Assembly: GCA_023475225.1 (NCBI GenBank) | Contig: JAMCVK010000036.1 | Span: 90,164 to 154,163 of the forward strand | Source: Chloroflexota bacterium | Lineage (GTDB): Bacteria; Chloroflexota; UBA6077; FW602-bin22; JAMCVK01 | Direction: 5' to 3' | Length of the DNA: 64,000 nucleotides | In this document: positions 51,221-58,448 of the stretch, piece after piece | Numbering within the stretch: position 1 is the first letter of the stretch | How the letters are laid out: each line of letters begins with the position of its first letter | Notes under the pieces: generated by a model | Told to the model about the DNA's origin: nothing | The model's input: the letters and a program-made list of their open reading frames with translations, nothing else | Database searches by the model: none | Program-made: the position numbers and the translations under genes

Positions 51221-52462
51221 TCAAATAACCAGCGGGATGCCCAGCCCCTTGCCACCGAGTGTCAGGGCCAGCCGCAGCGCCTCACGTCTCGATCCATGCG
51301 GTGCCAGCCACCATTGTTCAAACAGCACCTTTCCCCAGTGCCAGACCCGGCTCGGCTTGTATAGTTTCACTTGGGGCGAAGGTTCACTGTAGAAATTCCC
51401 ACTGGCAAACCCGGCCACACCGTGGCCCATCTCCAGCATTCAGTAACCGTCGCCAGCAAAAGTGGCAATGGGTGACTGGTCGTTCACTTGGGCAACGATC
51501 CGTCTGGCCACCGTCTCAGCTTGAGCGTGGGCGAACACACCAGCCTTGGGCAGCATCAGCGGTATATCGGGCTTCCAGCGACCTGGGATAGGGAGCGCCG
51601 TCACATCGCCCAGCGCATAGACATGCTCGTACCGGGTTGCCAGCGTGGCCCGATCCACCTGTACCCAGCCCACCTCATTCGCCAGAGCCGACTCGCGTAC
51701 AATGCGTGGACTTCGGTGCGGCGGGACAGCCACGAGCAAATCGTACTTGAACGGGTCCTTACCATCGAAGGTAAGTTTGCGGGTTTGCGGGTTGACGGCT
51801 GTCAGTTTGTGCAGCGGGTGAAAAGCGATTCCCTTCGCCTCAATCATCTGCCGGACGGCGGCGCCGAGCACTGGCCCTGCTACCGGCATCGGTTGAGGTT
51901 CAGGGGTAAATAGGTGTACCTCCACCCTGTCTCGCAGTCCACGCTTGCGGAAAAAGTCGGCCAGAAGCAGCACACCTTCGTGCGGCGCGCCGGGACATTT
52001 ATAAGGCAGCGCACTCACTACCAGGGTAACTGTCCCGCCATTAAACGTTTGCAGCGCATCGCGCAACTTTGCTGCACCATCAAAGGTGTAGAATGTGTGT
52101 GCCACGTCAGCCAGGCCAGGGATCACCTCAGGTGCAAGTTCAGCGCCCAGGGCAACGATGAGATAGTCATAGGTCAAGGTCTGCGTGCTCGTCTCCACGC
52201 TGCGGTTTGCCAGGTCGATGGACTGCGCTTCAGCCAGGACTATTTCGATGCCTGACCGCACTAGATGGCCCACGTCGCACGTGATCTGCTCCGGCTTCCG
52301 GTCGCCGGTCATCAGCCATAGGAATGAGGGGGCAAAAGTGTGCCGGGCGTTCTTCTCGACTAGCACGATACGATGCTCGCGCGGCAGACGCCGCCGCAGT
52401 TCATTAGCAGCGACCAGCCCACCGACACCACCACCCAAAATGACAACCGTTTTGCCAGCCAT
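51221..52462 (-). CDS. sulfide:quinone oxidoreductase-like flavoprotein with in-frame TGA (candidate selenocysteine)
   Basis: 413 codons if the TGA at 51442-51440 is read through. The first 340 residues have an FAD site (VVILGGGVGGLVAANEL), a redox-cysteine segment YKCPGAPHEG (Cys156) and LYALGD-type second FAD motif (YALGDVTALP). After the TGA the same frame continues 72 codons with clearly conserved family sequence (MGHGVAGFASGNFY, RVWHWGKVLFE). Family members have a redox cysteine here, in a context C-x2-E-x-G, so TGA stands at codon 341 where Cys is expected. Ribosome site GGAGGAG precedes the ATG. Either selenocysteine or a nonsense-mutated pseudogene; I favour Sec because of the hairpin downstream. 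Likely role is sulfide oxidation to quinone. Confidence 0.7.
51402..51436 (-). promoter_or_regulatory. bacterial SECIS-like hairpin after the in-frame TGA
   Basis: On the mRNA strand GGCCAC (51427-51422), loop GGT (51421-51419) and GTGGCC (51418-51413) form a perfect 6-bp stem. A lower stem CTGG/CCAG (51436-51433 with 51405-51402) surrounds it. Eighteen bases separate the TGA from the loop, and the loop begins with G. These values fall inside the bacterial SECIS rules I recall (loop 3-14 nt with an early G, 16-37 nt from UGA). Confidence 0.6.
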
Positions 52463-52589: not shown

Positions 52590-52922
52590 TTACAAGCTGA
52601 GATCGCGCTTCATTTCCTCGAACTGCTCTTTAGTGATTTCCCCTTTGGCGTAACGGCGTTTGAGGATGTCGAGCAGTGATTCGTTCGTGGGTGCATTGGT
52701 TCCTGGTTGTCCCGCGCCGCGCGCCAGGGATTGAACCAGCCAGACCACCCCAGCGATGATGAGCGCCCAGAACAAGAGCATTCCGATTCCGCCGACGAGC
52801 GGGAATCCCCATCCGCCCATCATCCACGGCCCCATCATTCCCCAGCCACGACCGTAGCCAGGTCCCCAACCGAAGGGGAAAAACAGGCTCATGCCCATGA
52901 TGAGCAGTACAACTCCGATCAC
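52590..52922 (-). CDS. membrane protein with SHOCT domain (Gly/Met/Trp-rich)
   Basis: 110 residues. Two hydrophobic segments flank a Gly/Trp/Met-rich stretch (GWGPGYGRGWGMMGPWMMGG), and the C-terminus is a SHOCT motif (LLDILKRRYAKGEITKEQFEEMK). It lies between a small Cys/His-rich SHOCT protein and the flavoprotein gene on one strand. The Met-rich loop could bind soft metals, but this is speculation. The SHOCT helices are nearly identical to those of the next upstream gene, suggesting the two proteins interact or duplicated. Confidence 0.78.
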   Translation of the reverse strand: MIGVVLLIMGMSLFFPFGWGPGYGRGWGMMGPWMMGGWGFPLVGGIGMLLFWALIIAGVVWLVQSLARGAGQPGTNAPTNESLLDILKRRYAKGEITKEQFEEMKRDLSL

Positions 52923-52964
52923 TATAGCCCAGGCAGTTTTATTCGTCGTATGCTTCTCCTTTCA

Positions 52965-53183
52965 TTAGTGGTGTCCACATTCAGCGGTAGATGCCACAGT
53001 AGAAGTGGCATCCGACACACCCAATACATGTTTCATTTCCTCGAACTGCTCACGGCTGATTTCACCCAGCGCATAGCGTCGTTTGAGGATGTCGAGCAGC
53101 GATTCGTTCAGCGTCACGTTCGCTTGCGTTGTTTGCGCAGCGTGTTCCGAATGATCCATCCCGTGCATCATCATACAACACAT
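52965..53183 (-). CDS. small Cys/His/Met-rich protein with SHOCT domain
   Basis: 72 residues from the ATG at 53183, with GGAGGAG five bases upstream; the longer frame is not supported. The N-terminus MCCMMMHGMDHSEHA and C-terminus AECGHH are dense in Cys, Met and His, a pattern of copper or other soft-metal binding. Between them lies a SHOCT motif (LLDILKRRYALGEISREQFEEMK). No transmembrane segment is apparent. It heads the group with the second SHOCT protein and the SQR-like gene, behind a promoter with an AT-rich operator, consistent with metal or sulfide stress control. Confidence 0.72.
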   Translation of the reverse strand: MCCMMMHGMDHSEHAAQTTQANVTLNESLLDILKRRYALGEISREQFEEMKHVLGVSDATSTVASTAECGHH

Positions 53184-53506
53184 TATTGCTCCTCCATCTC
53201 TGGTACGGAGCGCCAGGTCCAAGGATCCGGCGCTTCGCCCGCACGCTCTTACCACTGTTGGTGGATAATTATAATGAGGCATTGTGAGGATTTTATGAAG
53301 GAGTGATGCGGAGTCTATGAAGAAGTGCCTTTCTTCGATATCCTTTCGAATATTAGAATCTAAGAATATTTTATAGCATTGTTCGACTCTTGTCAAAACA
53401 ACGGGGCTGAAGGCTCATCCCTTGCAGTGAAAATTCAAGGGGTCGATTCTTTCACTCTGACTGCATCTTCAGATGAGCGAAGGGGATAAAGCAGGAGGTA
53501 GGCTGA
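53184..53506. other. upstream region of the SHOCT/SQR-like gene group
   Basis: About 320 bases without a gene. It holds the promoter/operator at 53348-53396 and an untranslated leader of about 180 bases. Towards the torD end a weak stem CCCTTG/CAAGGG occurs around 53419-53442. Confidence 0.5.
53348..53396 (-). promoter_or_regulatory. promoter with AT-rich operator for SHOCT/SQR-like group
   Basis: Minus strand -35 TTGACA (53396-53391), 17-base spacer, -10 TAAAAT (53373-53368). Around the predicted start (near 53361) are a near-perfect dyad TTAGAATCTAA (53353-53363) and two direct copies of GAATATT (53348 and 53364), 16 bases apart. This suits an ArsR- or CsoR-like repressor, which I cannot identify. 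Confidence 0.65.
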
Positions 53507-54274
53507 TTAGAGGAAGGAAGACCAATTCTCAATCTCGCTGACATCAGAGCAGACAAAATCGGCTGTTAAGTCGGCCATGGCGGCATAGAAGGGATGCCGC
53601 GTAGACCCCTTCACCTTACCACAAAAGAGAACCACCCAGGGCGATAGATGTTGGCTAAGGAACTTCCGCTGCCGTTCGAGGCAGGCGATGGCCGCCTCAA
53701 CATCGCCCAGGTTCCAGGATTCCGCCTCCCGACTACAGAGATGCTGCATAAATTGCAGCTCTAAGCCGATGTGATCCGGGGGTAACTCCTCGCTTACCTC
53801 CAGGCCGGCCTCAAGGTACTGCTGCCTGGCTGCCACTGTGGAGTCGCCCCAAAGTAAGCCCTTCACAGGACCAGCTGGAGACGGGTACCCCAGTCCGCTG
53901 TCCCTTAAGCCCCCGCTATCGGTATATACCGACTGGTAGGGGGATACGCAACCCGGTCCCACAAAGAGCCGCGTGTACTCTACCTCCAGCTCCTCTTGTA
54001 ACTTCAGCTCATTTCTAACCCTCAGACACGCCTCCAGCTCAGCAAGATAGGGTATAGACATACCGCAGAGGCGCAGCGCCGTAACGACGCCCCCTAGCCC
54101 ATGGAGAAGATGGCTGGAAGGTTTCTCAGCGTAAATAGTCGCCAGAAAATTGTAAATACTGCTCCTGGCCAGGGCGAAGTCCCTTAGGGTGATAAGCTCA
54201 CCCTCTGGCCCAGCCACATCCCCCGAGCCTTTGGGCATCTCCAGTTCTCGCTTAGGCTTTATAGACCTTAACAC
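53507..54274 (-). CDS. TorD/DmsD-family molybdoenzyme chaperone
   Basis: 255 residues, almost all helical. Family features are a Leu-rich N-terminal helix bundle starting at ARSSIYNFLATIYAEKP, the VEYTRLFVGPG segment, and PPDHIGLELQFMQHL with the D-H-I-x-x-E-L pattern. Such chaperones bind the Tat signal of their partner enzyme and help insert the molybdenum cofactor. The gene follows and overlaps the catalytic-subunit gene by 23 bases; the GTG at 54274 has AAGGAGG just upstream, and an ATG at 54238 is the alternative start. Confidence 0.87.
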   Translation of the reverse strand: MLRSIKPKRELEMPKGSGDVAGPEGELITLRDFALARSSIYNFLATIYAEKPSSHLLHGLGGVVTALRLCGMSIPYLAELEACLRVRNELKLQEELEVEYTRLFVGPGCVSPYQSVYTDSGGLRDSGLGYPSPAGPVKGLLWGDSTVAARQQYLEAGLEVSEELPPDHIGLELQFMQHLCSREAESWNLGDVEAAIACLERQRKFLSQHLSPWVVLFCGKVKGSTRHPFYAAMADLTADFVCSDVSEIENWSSFL

Positions 54275-56645
54275 AGACCTCCTTATGCAGAGCCATGCCA
54301 GATATGGGATCGCATTTGGTCAGATTGAACTGACCATCGGCCGTGCCCTTGCCCCTGGCCACCTTACCGAAGCCCCAGTGGCCAAAGCCATGCTGCCAAC
54401 CTACCACCTCGGGATGGACGCCCTGTGTTACCCTGGCGATGGCTTTATCCTTGCCATAGGGAGATTCCACCCAAACCTTATCCCCATCTTTGATGCCCAG
54501 CCTCTCCGCCGTCTTAGCGTTGATAGCCAGACGATTCCAGCTCTGCAACTCCATCAAGTAGGGATTGTTGAAGGTTCGGGAATGCGTGTGGTGTGTCTCC
54601 TTCCAGTTGATAAGGTAGAGGGGATATTTATCGTCAGGGAGCCAGTCTCGTGGCGTATAGACAGGTAGGCCGTTCACCGGCTCGCCCTTTATATCCTTCT
54701 TAGCAGCAAGGCTCTCCGAGAAGAGCTCACACTTGCCAGAAGGGGTACCAAGGCCCTTGTAAACCTTATCTCCCACCTTCACACCCACGAATTTACCGTC
54801 TTTATCCTTAACTGTACCCGTCTTCGCCTGCACAACCGCCCCTTCAGGCATCTTCACTTCGGTCTTATGTTTCTCGTACTGTGTTCCCTTAGCGTCCATC
54901 CACACTGCCCCTGGCAGGGCCTGGAGCTGCTCCAGGGTGATCTTAGCCGAGCCACCCTGGATCATCTTGCTGATGTAATCCTCATAGCGGAGGTTAGCGA
55001 AGAAGGGTTTACCCTCCGCATCCTTGAGCCCTAAGCGCTTGCCCAGCTCGATAACGACATCGTACTCCGGAATCTGTCCGAAGATGGGCTTCACCACCGG
55101 CTGACGCAGGGTCACCACCGGCCAGGTCACCCATTGTCCAATAACCTCATATCGCTCCAAATAGGTCGTGCCGGGGAGGACGATGTCGGCCATTTCAGCC
55201 GTCTCGCTGAGAAAGGTATCCACGACCACCACGTACTCCAGCTTCTTGAGGGCTTCGATGACATTGTTCGTACCTGGGACAGAGAGCACAAGGTTCTGAA
55301 AAATGATCATAGCCATCTTAGGCTGGTAAGGGCCCTTACCATCGAGGATGCGATTGACGATCTCAGTGTAGACGCCGGAGGCATGTCCCATTGGAAAGTC
55401 CTTAAGTCCATCCAGCCTGGGCTTAGCGGTCTTCTTCACCTTGATCGGTGGATGAGCCCCACCTCCCTTGTTGGGGATAAGAAGAGTACCTGGCTTATCG
55501 ATGTTACCCGTGAGCGCTGCCAGGGCAGCGATAGCCCGGCCACCCTGAACTGCATTAGAATGCTGTCCCGGACCAGACCAGGCATCAACGACAGCCGGCT
55601 TAGTGGTAGCAAACTCCCGGGCGAGACGTCTGATAGTGCCAGCCGGCACACTGGTGATTTTCTCCGCCCATTCCGGCGTCTTATCTTTAACATAATCCTT
55701 GAATTGGTCGAAACCAACCACCCAGTCAGCGATGAACTGCTGGTCATATAGGTTTGCTTCGATGATCACATTGGCCATAGCCAGGGCGAGAGCCCCATCG
55801 GTAGAGGGTCGAATGGGAATCCACTCGTGGGCCTTGGCCGCGGTGAAGCTGAGATAAGGATCCACCACCACCATCTTGGCTCCATTTTCGATGCCACGCA
55901 TAATGGTGCGAGGTAAATGAGCCCACTTGGTGGCCGAGAGGGGATTCCAGCCAAAGAAAAGGATATATCTAGCGTTCACTGTATCACCCAGAGGACGGTC
56001 ATGGCCAAGGACAGCCTTGAAGGAGGCCTTGCGGGAGACATCGCAGAGGTTGGAATGCATGCTGTAGTTAGGAGTGCCATACAGATCGCAAAGGTCGGCC
56101 TGGATATCAGTGAAGCTAGAATCCTCAGTGAACCAGAGCAGGGTATGGGCCTCACCAGCATCACGCAGAGATTTAAGCTTGCTGGCAATCTCAGTCAAAG
56201 CCTCATCCCAAGAGATCTCCTTCCACTTGGGATCCACACCTCTGCCTTTCTGGGGGTTAGTGCGTTTGAGCGGTTTCTTCAGCCTGTCCGGATCGTAAAG
56301 GGTGAAAATGCCCGCATTGCCCTTGGGGCACATGGCCGCCCCCTCGCCCTTATGAGCCAAATAGTCTGCGGATGCGTTGGAAACACCGATGGGGTTGGCC
56401 GGGTTGGGTTTTATGGCTACCACTCGACCGTTCAACACGTTACAAAGGATACCGGTGGTGCCACCACACATATGACAACAGGTGGGGATCCACACCCCCT
56501 CCGCTCGGCTCAAGTCCTCCACAGGGGCAGAGGCAACCCTCGTTACTAAAGGGGTAAAGCGGCTGCCCACAGCGACAAATCCAGCCATGGCGGCCGACAA
56601 TTCCAGGAACTGGCGACGCGTAAGCTTGCGCGGCTCCATATCCAT
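54252..56645 (-). CDS. CISM-family molybdopterin oxidoreductase, catalytic subunit (Psr/Phs/Arr/Ttr-like)
   Basis: 797 residues, exported by Tat (LTRRQFLEL at 8-16). The N-terminal cluster region reads CCHMCGGTTGILC (56-68) with the fourth ligand in MCPKG (Cys106): the third canonical cysteine position (64) is threonine, while extra cysteines sit at 56 and 68. A cysteine in SNLCDVSR (Cys201) is the likely Mo ligand, as in polysulfide/thiosulfate and arsenate reductases. The molybdopterin-dinucleotide domain ends the protein. With the Fe-S and NrfD subunits it forms a quinol-coupled periplasmic reductase. Substrate may be polysulfide, thiosulfate, tetrathionate or arsenate; motifs do not decide. 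Confidence 0.88.
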   Translation of the reverse strand: MDMEPRKLTRRQFLELSAAMAGFVAVGSRFTPLVTRVASAPVEDLSRAEGVWIPTCCHMCGGTTGILCNVLNGRVVAIKPNPANPIGVSNASADYLAHKGEGAAMCPKGNAGIFTLYDPDRLKKPLKRTNPQKGRGVDPKWKEISWDEALTEIASKLKSLRDAGEAHTLLWFTEDSSFTDIQADLCDLYGTPNYSMHSNLCDVSRKASFKAVLGHDRPLGDTVNARYILFFGWNPLSATKWAHLPRTIMRGIENGAKMVVVDPYLSFTAAKAHEWIPIRPSTDGALALAMANVIIEANLYDQQFIADWVVGFDQFKDYVKDKTPEWAEKITSVPAGTIRRLAREFATTKPAVVDAWSGPGQHSNAVQGGRAIAALAALTGNIDKPGTLLIPNKGGGAHPPIKVKKTAKPRLDGLKDFPMGHASGVYTEIVNRILDGKGPYQPKMAMIIFQNLVLSVPGTNNVIEALKKLEYVVVVDTFLSETAEMADIVLPGTTYLERYEVIGQWVTWPVVTLRQPVVKPIFGQIPEYDVVIELGKRLGLKDAEGKPFFANLRYEDYISKMIQGGSAKITLEQLQALPGAVWMDAKGTQYEKHKTEVKMPEGAVVQAKTGTVKDKDGKFVGVKVGDKVYKGLGTPSGKCELFSESLAAKKDIKGEPVNGLPVYTPRDWLPDDKYPLYLINWKETHHTHSRTFNNPYLMELQSWNRLAINAKTAERLGIKDGDKVWVESPYGKDKAIARVTQGVHPEVVGWQHGFGHWGFGKVARGKGTADGQFNLTKCDPISGMALHKEVCVKVYKA

Positions 56646-56651
56646 AACCTC

Positions 56652-57659
56652 CTAATTGAGCGGGATCATCTGTCCACCAACTACGGTGACATAGCGCATG
56701 ACGTAGATGCCAACTAGCACCAGCAGGGAAGCCGCCGATAGGGCGAACATGTTTCTATTCAGCTTCGGCATAACCAGAATGACCAGCGGCAGAAACAAGC
56801 CGAGCAACAGCTCTACCCCTAAGAAGAGCGGCGCAAAACTGCCCCGCAACAGTAGCATGGCGGCCGCGTAGTCATCAGGACGAGAGGCCGTAAGCACTAA
56901 CACTTCGGAGAGGATGAATAAGAAATCAAGCAGGATGAACCCAGCTAGGATCTTCCCTAGATCACGGATGACGTCATCTGTCACCTTGGGGAAGTACTTG
57001 GTGACCAGCGGGTTATCACCCCATAGCCTCTCCTTAAGGACACAGACCACGATCAGGAGGGCTGTGCCCGAAACCATGGCCGACACCAGAAAGTACATGG
57101 GCATCAAGGAGACGTTCCACATGGCCCGCCCTTGCCCCAGACCAACAATAAAACCGGTGTAGCCATGCACCATGATGGCTAGCGGAATGCCCAGGCTACC
57201 GAAGAACTTCATCAGGGCCTCAGCCTTAGGGTCATGATACGCCATCACCCCTTCGGCCAAGCTACGGCCTCCGCCGAAGATGGGAAGCGCCGGTCCCTCC
57301 ACCTGATAAATGAAGTAGAGATAGATCAAACAGTTGATGGGATAAAGGATGAGTAGAAAGGTACCCCAGGTCACTGGTGACCTGAAGTTGAACATATAGA
57401 GAAGATGTATGAAGCGCAGGGGCTGCTCTAGGTCAATGAGCAGAAATAGAGGGGCGATGATCAACACGATGGGAGCAAGGATAGCCCCCACCCGACCGGC
57501 GGCCTTGAATCTCTCCAGGCCGAAGACGTAGGCCAGAGTAGAGATAAGAAAGGAGGCCGCGCTGACACCTGTGAGGAAAAAGTAGGTAGCTATATTGCTC
57601 TTAAGGGGTACGATATGGGGCACGTTATAGACCACGGTCACTAAATCACGAGGGTCCAT
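56652..57659 (-). CDS. NrfD/PsrC-family membrane anchor subunit
   Basis: 335 residues with eight to nine transmembrane helices. The start YNVPHIVPLKSNIATYFFLTG and PLFLLIDLEQPLRF are characteristic of NrfD/PsrC proteins, which bind menaquinone at the periplasmic face and carry no heme. It lies between the Fe-S subunit gene (24-base gap) and the catalytic gene (6-base gap). Order Fe-S, membrane, catalytic is the same as ttrBCA. Confidence 0.9.
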   Translation of the reverse strand: MDPRDLVTVVYNVPHIVPLKSNIATYFFLTGVSAASFLISTLAYVFGLERFKAAGRVGAILAPIVLIIAPLFLLIDLEQPLRFIHLLYMFNFRSPVTWGTFLLILYPINCLIYLYFIYQVEGPALPIFGGGRSLAEGVMAYHDPKAEALMKFFGSLGIPLAIMVHGYTGFIVGLGQGRAMWNVSLMPMYFLVSAMVSGTALLIVVCVLKERLWGDNPLVTKYFPKVTDDVIRDLGKILAGFILLDFLFILSEVLVLTASRPDDYAAAMLLLRGSFAPLFLGVELLLGLFLPLVILVMPKLNRNMFALSAASLLVLVGIYVMRYVTVVGGQMIPLN

Positions 57660-57683
57660 CTTGTTACACCTCCCTAATCTCCC

Positions 57684-58412
57684 TTACCTAATAGGTTGAT
57701 TGCTGGCGAGACGATAGTCATAGAACCGATCGGCGTAGGAGAGTCCCTCAAGGATCTTGTACCTCTCCCGAACGTCTTCCTCACTCAGACCCACCTCCTC
57801 TTTAAGATCCCGATGATAGTAGCGGATGTACTGGGGATCGGTGCCGCGTCTGTCCATAACGAATTGATCGGGAAAGATGTAAAAGACCTGAGGCTCAGTG
57901 CCACTATCCGGTTTGAAGGGGCTCACCGGATTGGTGGCAATGAGTTTAGAGACCTCACTCTGCGGGTCATTCATATCACCAAAGGTGCGCGCCTTAGTCA
58001 TGCAGGTTTCGACGCAGGCCGGCTGTTGCCCCCTTTCCACCCGGTGGACACAGAAGGTGCACTTCTCCACCACCTTGCGGACAGGGTTGACGAAACGGGC
58101 ATCGTAAGGACAAGAAGCGATGCAATACTTGCAGCCGATACAGCGATCGTAATCGACAAGCACAATGCCATCCTCCCGCTGATAGGAGGCTTGCACCGGG
58201 CAGTTCTGCACGCAGATGGGCCTGGCGCAATGGTTACATAGCGATGGTAGAGACAACTTACGTACGTTGGGATATTCCCCCTTCTCTACTTGCTTGACCC
58301 ACGCCCGAAAGGTGGCGATGGGGACGTTATTCTCCTGTTTACAGGCTACAGAGCAGGCGTGACAACCCACACAACGGCGCAAGTCGATGACCATCACATA
58401 TCTTTTTGCCAT
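57684..58412 (-). CDS. four-cluster Fe-S electron transfer subunit (PsrB/TtrB-like)
   Basis: 242 residues from the ATG at 58412, seven bases after AAGGAGG. Four cysteine groups typical of CISM beta subunits: CVGCHACSVACKQEN, CNHCARPICVQNCP, CIGCKYCIASCPYDAR and CTFCVHRVERGQQPACVETC. They conduct electrons between the NrfD-type subunit and the molybdenum subunit. No signal peptide is present, so it is probably exported together with the Tat-bearing catalytic subunit. It is the first gene of the four-gene reductase operon. Confidence 0.92.
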   Translation of the reverse strand: MAKRYVMVIDLRRCVGCHACSVACKQENNVPIATFRAWVKQVEKGEYPNVRKLSLPSLCNHCARPICVQNCPVQASYQREDGIVLVDYDRCIGCKYCIASCPYDARFVNPVRKVVEKCTFCVHRVERGQQPACVETCMTKARTFGDMNDPQSEVSKLIATNPVSPFKPDSGTEPQVFYIFPDQFVMDRRGTDPQYIRYYHRDLKEEVGLSEEDVRERYKILEGLSYADRFYDYRLASNQPIR

Positions 58413-58448
58413 ACTAATCCCTCCTTCGCTGTGCTGGAGAACTCTCAC

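Follow-up and report, generated by a model that had tools for sequence, protein, structure and literature searches.

The window, a 64,000-nucleotide stretch of a contig from a Chloroflexota bacterium, carries on its minus strand a gene predicted to encode a selenocysteine (Sec)-containing, type III sulfide:quinone oxidoreductase (SQR)-like flavoprotein (51221-52462), with Sec at TGA341 among its 413 codons. The minus-strand frame runs from an ATG at 52462 to an in-frame TGA at 51442-51440, which is codon 341, and on to a second TGA at 51223-51221, whereas a default ORF call ends at 51440 and yields 340 amino acids. Codons 342-413 add 72 residues, with no further stop before the terminal TGA. 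The original prediction, which described a frame broken by this TGA and then continued by 72 conserved codons, is borne out in its coordinates and in the conservation, and the redox cysteine that it placed in a KCPGAP motif is indeed there: this is Cys156 (K-C156-P, codons 155-157, 51992-52000, minus strand), the presumed redox partner of residue 341, which is invariant in 29 aligned homologues. A genome search found this to be the sole gene of its kind in the genome, with no Cys paralogue, and the exact gene is known from one genome only.

Just upstream lie two small SHOCT-domain genes (52590-52922 and 52965-53396, together spanning 52590-53396, minus strand), followed by an operon resembling those of polysulfide/thiosulfate reductases, with genes for an Fe-S subunit, NrfD, a PhsA-like molybdoenzyme, and a TorD-like chaperone (53507-58448, minus strand). 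We count this operon as supporting a sulfur-metabolism context for the SQR-like gene. SHOCT genes also directly precede Cys-type homologues at four other loci (L028, L030, L032, and L083), which suggests that they are a conserved partner of SQR-like genes.

Homologues were collected by scanning 84,980 species genomes, which gave 75 loci, and by searches of Chloroflexota genomes, which gave further loci. Codon 341 could be aligned at 114 places, where it is TGC in 82, TGT in 22, TGA in nine (including the window gene), and TCT in a single, remote match. The homologues with either TGA or TGC/TGT at this codon that the original prediction proposed to look for are therefore present, at nine and 104 of the 114 places, respectively. 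All close relatives have Cys in this column, and of the 26 columns that are invariant in a 29-sequence alignment, two are C156 and C/U341. In the alignment to the best PDB sequence matches, which are SQRs, codon 341 pairs with the distal Cys356 of the Acidithiobacillus ferrooxidans enzyme, confirming the supposed Cys column; in the Aquifex SQR, we take the distal catalytic cysteine to be Cys347. Seven of the eight other loci with TGA in this column belong to a distant clade (33-36% identity to the window protein), and the eighth is L079 (55%). Stops inside three other loci (L136, L138, and L140) were set aside, their positions not being at the Cys column. Translation of the TGA as Trp, or another genetic code, was also rejected: the column holds Cys throughout, and TGA ends other ORFs of the window.

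Downstream of the TGA, the RNA can fold into a hairpin of the SECIS type. Its apical part, GGCCAC-GGU-GUGGCC (51413-51427, minus strand; alternatively a 5-bp stem with a CGGUG loop), begins 12 nt past the TGA and is enclosed by an outer helix (51401-51437, minus strand) of 4 + 5 bp flanking a bulge. The 6-bp stem, the GGT loop, and their distance from the TGA are as originally described, whereas the outer stem is longer than the 4 bp proposed there. The whole fold, over the 48 nt from the TGA, has an energy of -19.2 kcal/mol (z -2.4). Bacterial SECIS (bSECIS) constraints comprise a loop of 3-9 nt with a G (with G/U next) in its first two positions, a stem of 4-16 bp, a minimum free energy of at most -7.5, and a distance of 16-37 nt from the UGA (PMC13188914). 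With its 6-bp stem, GGU loop, distance of 18 nt from the UGA, and energy of -8.9 kcal/mol, the window hairpin satisfies every one of them, in line with the predicted match to bacterial SECIS rules.

Hairpins within these constraints follow 2.3% of window positions, and among the 19 TGA-ended window ORFs of at least 150 aa only the SQR-like gene has one. A strict SECIS test is passed at 7/9 TGA places, compared to 18/104 Cys places and 3/57 close Cys homologues; in the two TGA genes that fail it, a one-base bulge interrupts the 6-bp stem (-10.1 kcal/mol). In each of the nine TGA genes the stem lies at +12 and the loop is rich in G, and CGG or GGG opens it at the same position throughout. Two pairs of the hairpin (C-G/G-C and A-U/C-G) carry double compensatory changes across these loci. 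When the same peptide is re-encoded at random, 1% of the versions reach the observed fold energy for the window gene and 0.15% for L079. We also observe that the GHG peptide encoded by the hairpin differs from the usual sequence of the Cys homologues and is shared with L079. Fold energy alone was discarded as a discriminator between Sec and Cys genes: GC-rich Cys homologues fold equally well, which explains why the window gene ranks only 18th of the 114. An Rfam search at the locus returned no family of note.

The search for selA, selB, selC, and selD that the original prediction suggested recovered the first three. The selA gene (484 bits) adjoins selB (371 bits) on contig C14 of the same genome, and the tRNA-Sec gene, selC, is located on contig C45 (72 bits, anticodon TCA). 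Judged by composition, the contig that carries selA and selB does not look foreign, being close to the window (GC of 54% vs 55%, tetranucleotide correlation of 0.92). For selD, no TIGR00476 match above cut-off was found in the assembly, which is 96.85% complete, so that the absence of the gene is not proven. Three candidates below the cut-off look, from a reading of their sequences, like HypE (L020), ThiL (L019), and a related AIRS-family protein (L018), the HypE-like gene adjoining hyp-like genes. SelA occurs in 62 of the 70 genomes of the comparison set and SelD in 58 of those 62. As SelD is present in 58 of the 61 other SelA-bearing Chloroflexota (G026, G049, and G096 likewise have none), its absence here is unusual, and this is the main doubt about the Sec reading. 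Either selD is in the 3% that is unassembled, or it has truly been lost. Other selenoproteins were sought in three families, formate dehydrogenase, FlpD, and AhpC/TSA, whose matches in the genome have no internal TGA.

The window protein matches Pyr_redox_2 and the central domain of flavocytochrome c sulfide dehydrogenase (FCSD). Its AlphaFold2 model, built from a 30-sequence alignment with Sec as Cys (mean pLDDT 94.3, pTM 0.92), has the SQR fold with FAD-binding two-dinucleotide domains and ends in two helices (372-386 and 391-407). In a Foldseek search of the PDB, human, Acidithiobacillus, and Aquifex SQRs came first, ahead of most NDH-2 and FCSD entries. The characterised SQRs (Aquifex aeolicus, 3HYV; A. 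ferrooxidans, 3SZ0 series; human SQOR, 6OI5) resemble the window protein in fold (TM about 0.80-0.85) and have both of its redox positions (about 156 and 341-356), but with Cys at the second; they are only 22-26% identical to it.

The Cys column, the agreement of the hairpin with the SECIS rules, and the presence of SelA, SelB, and tRNA-Sec make Sec well supported, and with it the original proposal that Sec occupies the position of the catalytic cysteine. We therefore regard it as highly probable that the product of the gene is a type III SQR-like flavoprotein of 413 residues, with UGA341 being decoded as Sec via SelB, tRNA-Sec, and the downstream hairpin, and with Sec341 as the distal catalytic residue. 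In such an enzyme, the hairpin 12 nt downstream would direct SelB and tRNA-Sec to the UGA, Sec341 would take the place of the distal cysteine and be partnered with Cys156 at the FAD, sulfide would be bound and oxidised via a Cys/Sec persulfide or selenosulfide, and the electrons would pass through FAD to quinone at the membrane. Sulfide oxidation with electron transfer to quinone is the likeliest role of the window protein, judging from its sequence and that of its relatives.

The TGA might instead stem from a sequencing or assembly error, or from a nonsense mutation that very recently arose in an ordinary Cys-type SQR gene. TGC or TGT is one base away from TGA, close relatives have Cys, the gene comes from one genome assembly only, and selD was not found there, all of which would agree with such an event. 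We nevertheless consider it unlikely, as a SECIS-type hairpin with the right spacing would have to coincide with the altered base (2.3% of random positions, 3/57 close Cys homologues), the GHG peptide that builds this hairpin is atypical of Cys homologues and recurs in L079, TGA is found in the same column at eight other loci, and SelA, SelB, and tRNA-Sec are present. A genuine stop, leaving a 340-residue truncated product and the 72 downstream codons as a relic, is more improbable still. The TGA would act as a stop if no Sec were made, and the entire FAD-binding core precedes it; the tail, however, holds the surroundings of the second catalytic residue and the modelled C-terminal helices and is free of further stops. 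Moreover, a relic 3' of a true stop is expected to drift, whereas the 72 codons keep the relative identity of intact homologues: the ratio of identity over residues 342-413 to that over residues 1-340 is 0.89-1.02 between the window protein and its ten nearest examined Cys homologues, no different from the value that these homologues give among themselves (0.96 +/- 0.06). The tail is thus still under selection as protein.

A further alternative accepts Sec but not the SQR function, the protein being a related flavin disulfide oxidoreductase with another sulfur or selenium substrate or a non-quinone acceptor. The modest identity to characterised SQRs and a fold common to FCSD and NDH-2 leave some room for this, and the adjoining polysulfide/thiosulfate-reductase-like operon makes polysulfide or thiosulfate chemistry possible. 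We hold this to be a minority possibility, given that both SQR redox positions are conserved, that SQRs stand above FCSD and NDH-2 in the structure search, that there is no fused cytochrome, and that the model ends in two helices.

A selenoprotein of this kind has been predicted before, so the remark in the original prediction that it knew of no described Sec-containing SQR does not hold (PMC12013277, PMC13188914, NF049943). An NAD(P)/FAD-dependent oxidoreductase with Sec, predicted by Xiao & Zhang (2025), comes from two Desulfosediminicola genomes and has TGA homologues elsewhere (PMC12013277). A 2026 review gives this family under NF049943, with the name type III sulfide quinone reductase, selenoprotein subtype, and the motif HxxU (PMC13188914); MGW8192990.1 is a Desulfosediminicola member of NF049943. 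The kind is therefore already known by prediction. NF049943 is also the top NCBIfam match of the window protein (residues 4-383, 246.3 bits, E 5e-73), and both place Sec in an SQR-like flavoprotein. The score is, however, well below the curated cut-off of 525 bits, as it is for the distant TGA clade, and we therefore do not place the window protein in this family; it also differs in having DGYU, with Asp at -3, instead of HxxU, and in lying inside a Cys clade. The gene is thus probably a new, independent Sec-containing SQR-like flavoprotein, outside NF049943.

The nearest relatives are Cys-containing type III SQR-like proteins from Chloroflexota, Acidobacteriota, and other bacteria (for example L026, L021, and L093), which reach 74% full-length identity and share the domain plan and the invariant Cys156, several having a SHOCT gene nearby. 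Unlike the window gene, they have TGC or TGT at codon 341 and mostly no SECIS-type hairpin. At this identity, the window protein and the Cys enzymes of related bacteria form a close Sec/Cys pair in which to study what advantage selenium might bring, be it rate, resistance to over-oxidation, or polysulfide release, any kinetic benefit of Sec in the window protein being presumptive. The gene also extends the predicted Sec enzymes of sulfide oxidation beyond Desulfosediminicola. Since standard gene calling truncates Sec-SQR genes, such enzymes are under-counted.

In a maximum-likelihood tree computed with codon 341 masked, three state changes are required to account for the nine TGA genes, two of which are forced by well-supported branches (SH-aLRT support from a quick search). 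The window gene falls within a set of 57 rows with 99% SH-aLRT support that otherwise contains Cys genes only, away from the Sec clade with the motif HTxU; an independent Cys-to-Sec change in the window lineage is thus likely, as far as the tree indicates. L079, from a Baikal Dehalococcoidia, branches alone on a long branch. Its TGA falls in the Sec column and a good SECIS-type hairpin is present, yet its N-terminal half contains a frameshift near residue 120. On balance, and with some reserve, we favor at least two, perhaps three, separate origins of Sec as the distal redox residue of SQR-like proteins (window, L079, and HTxU lineages), by convergence on a hairpin at the same position, with a CGG-type loop and a forced peptide change (GHG/GAG) that builds the SECIS.

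The seven genes of the HTxU clade come from Chloroflexota (L143, L144, L145, L146, L147, and L148) and Binatota (L089). They share the TGA at the column of the window gene and have His at -3, as in NF049943 when the two are compared via its motif HxxU. The four members scored against NF049943 reach 238-258 bits, under its cut-off, which suggests that the Sec proteins of this clade are likely cut short in annotation. Their motif, HTxU-L, is accompanied by a GGCGC-CGGG-GCGCC-type hairpin at +12.
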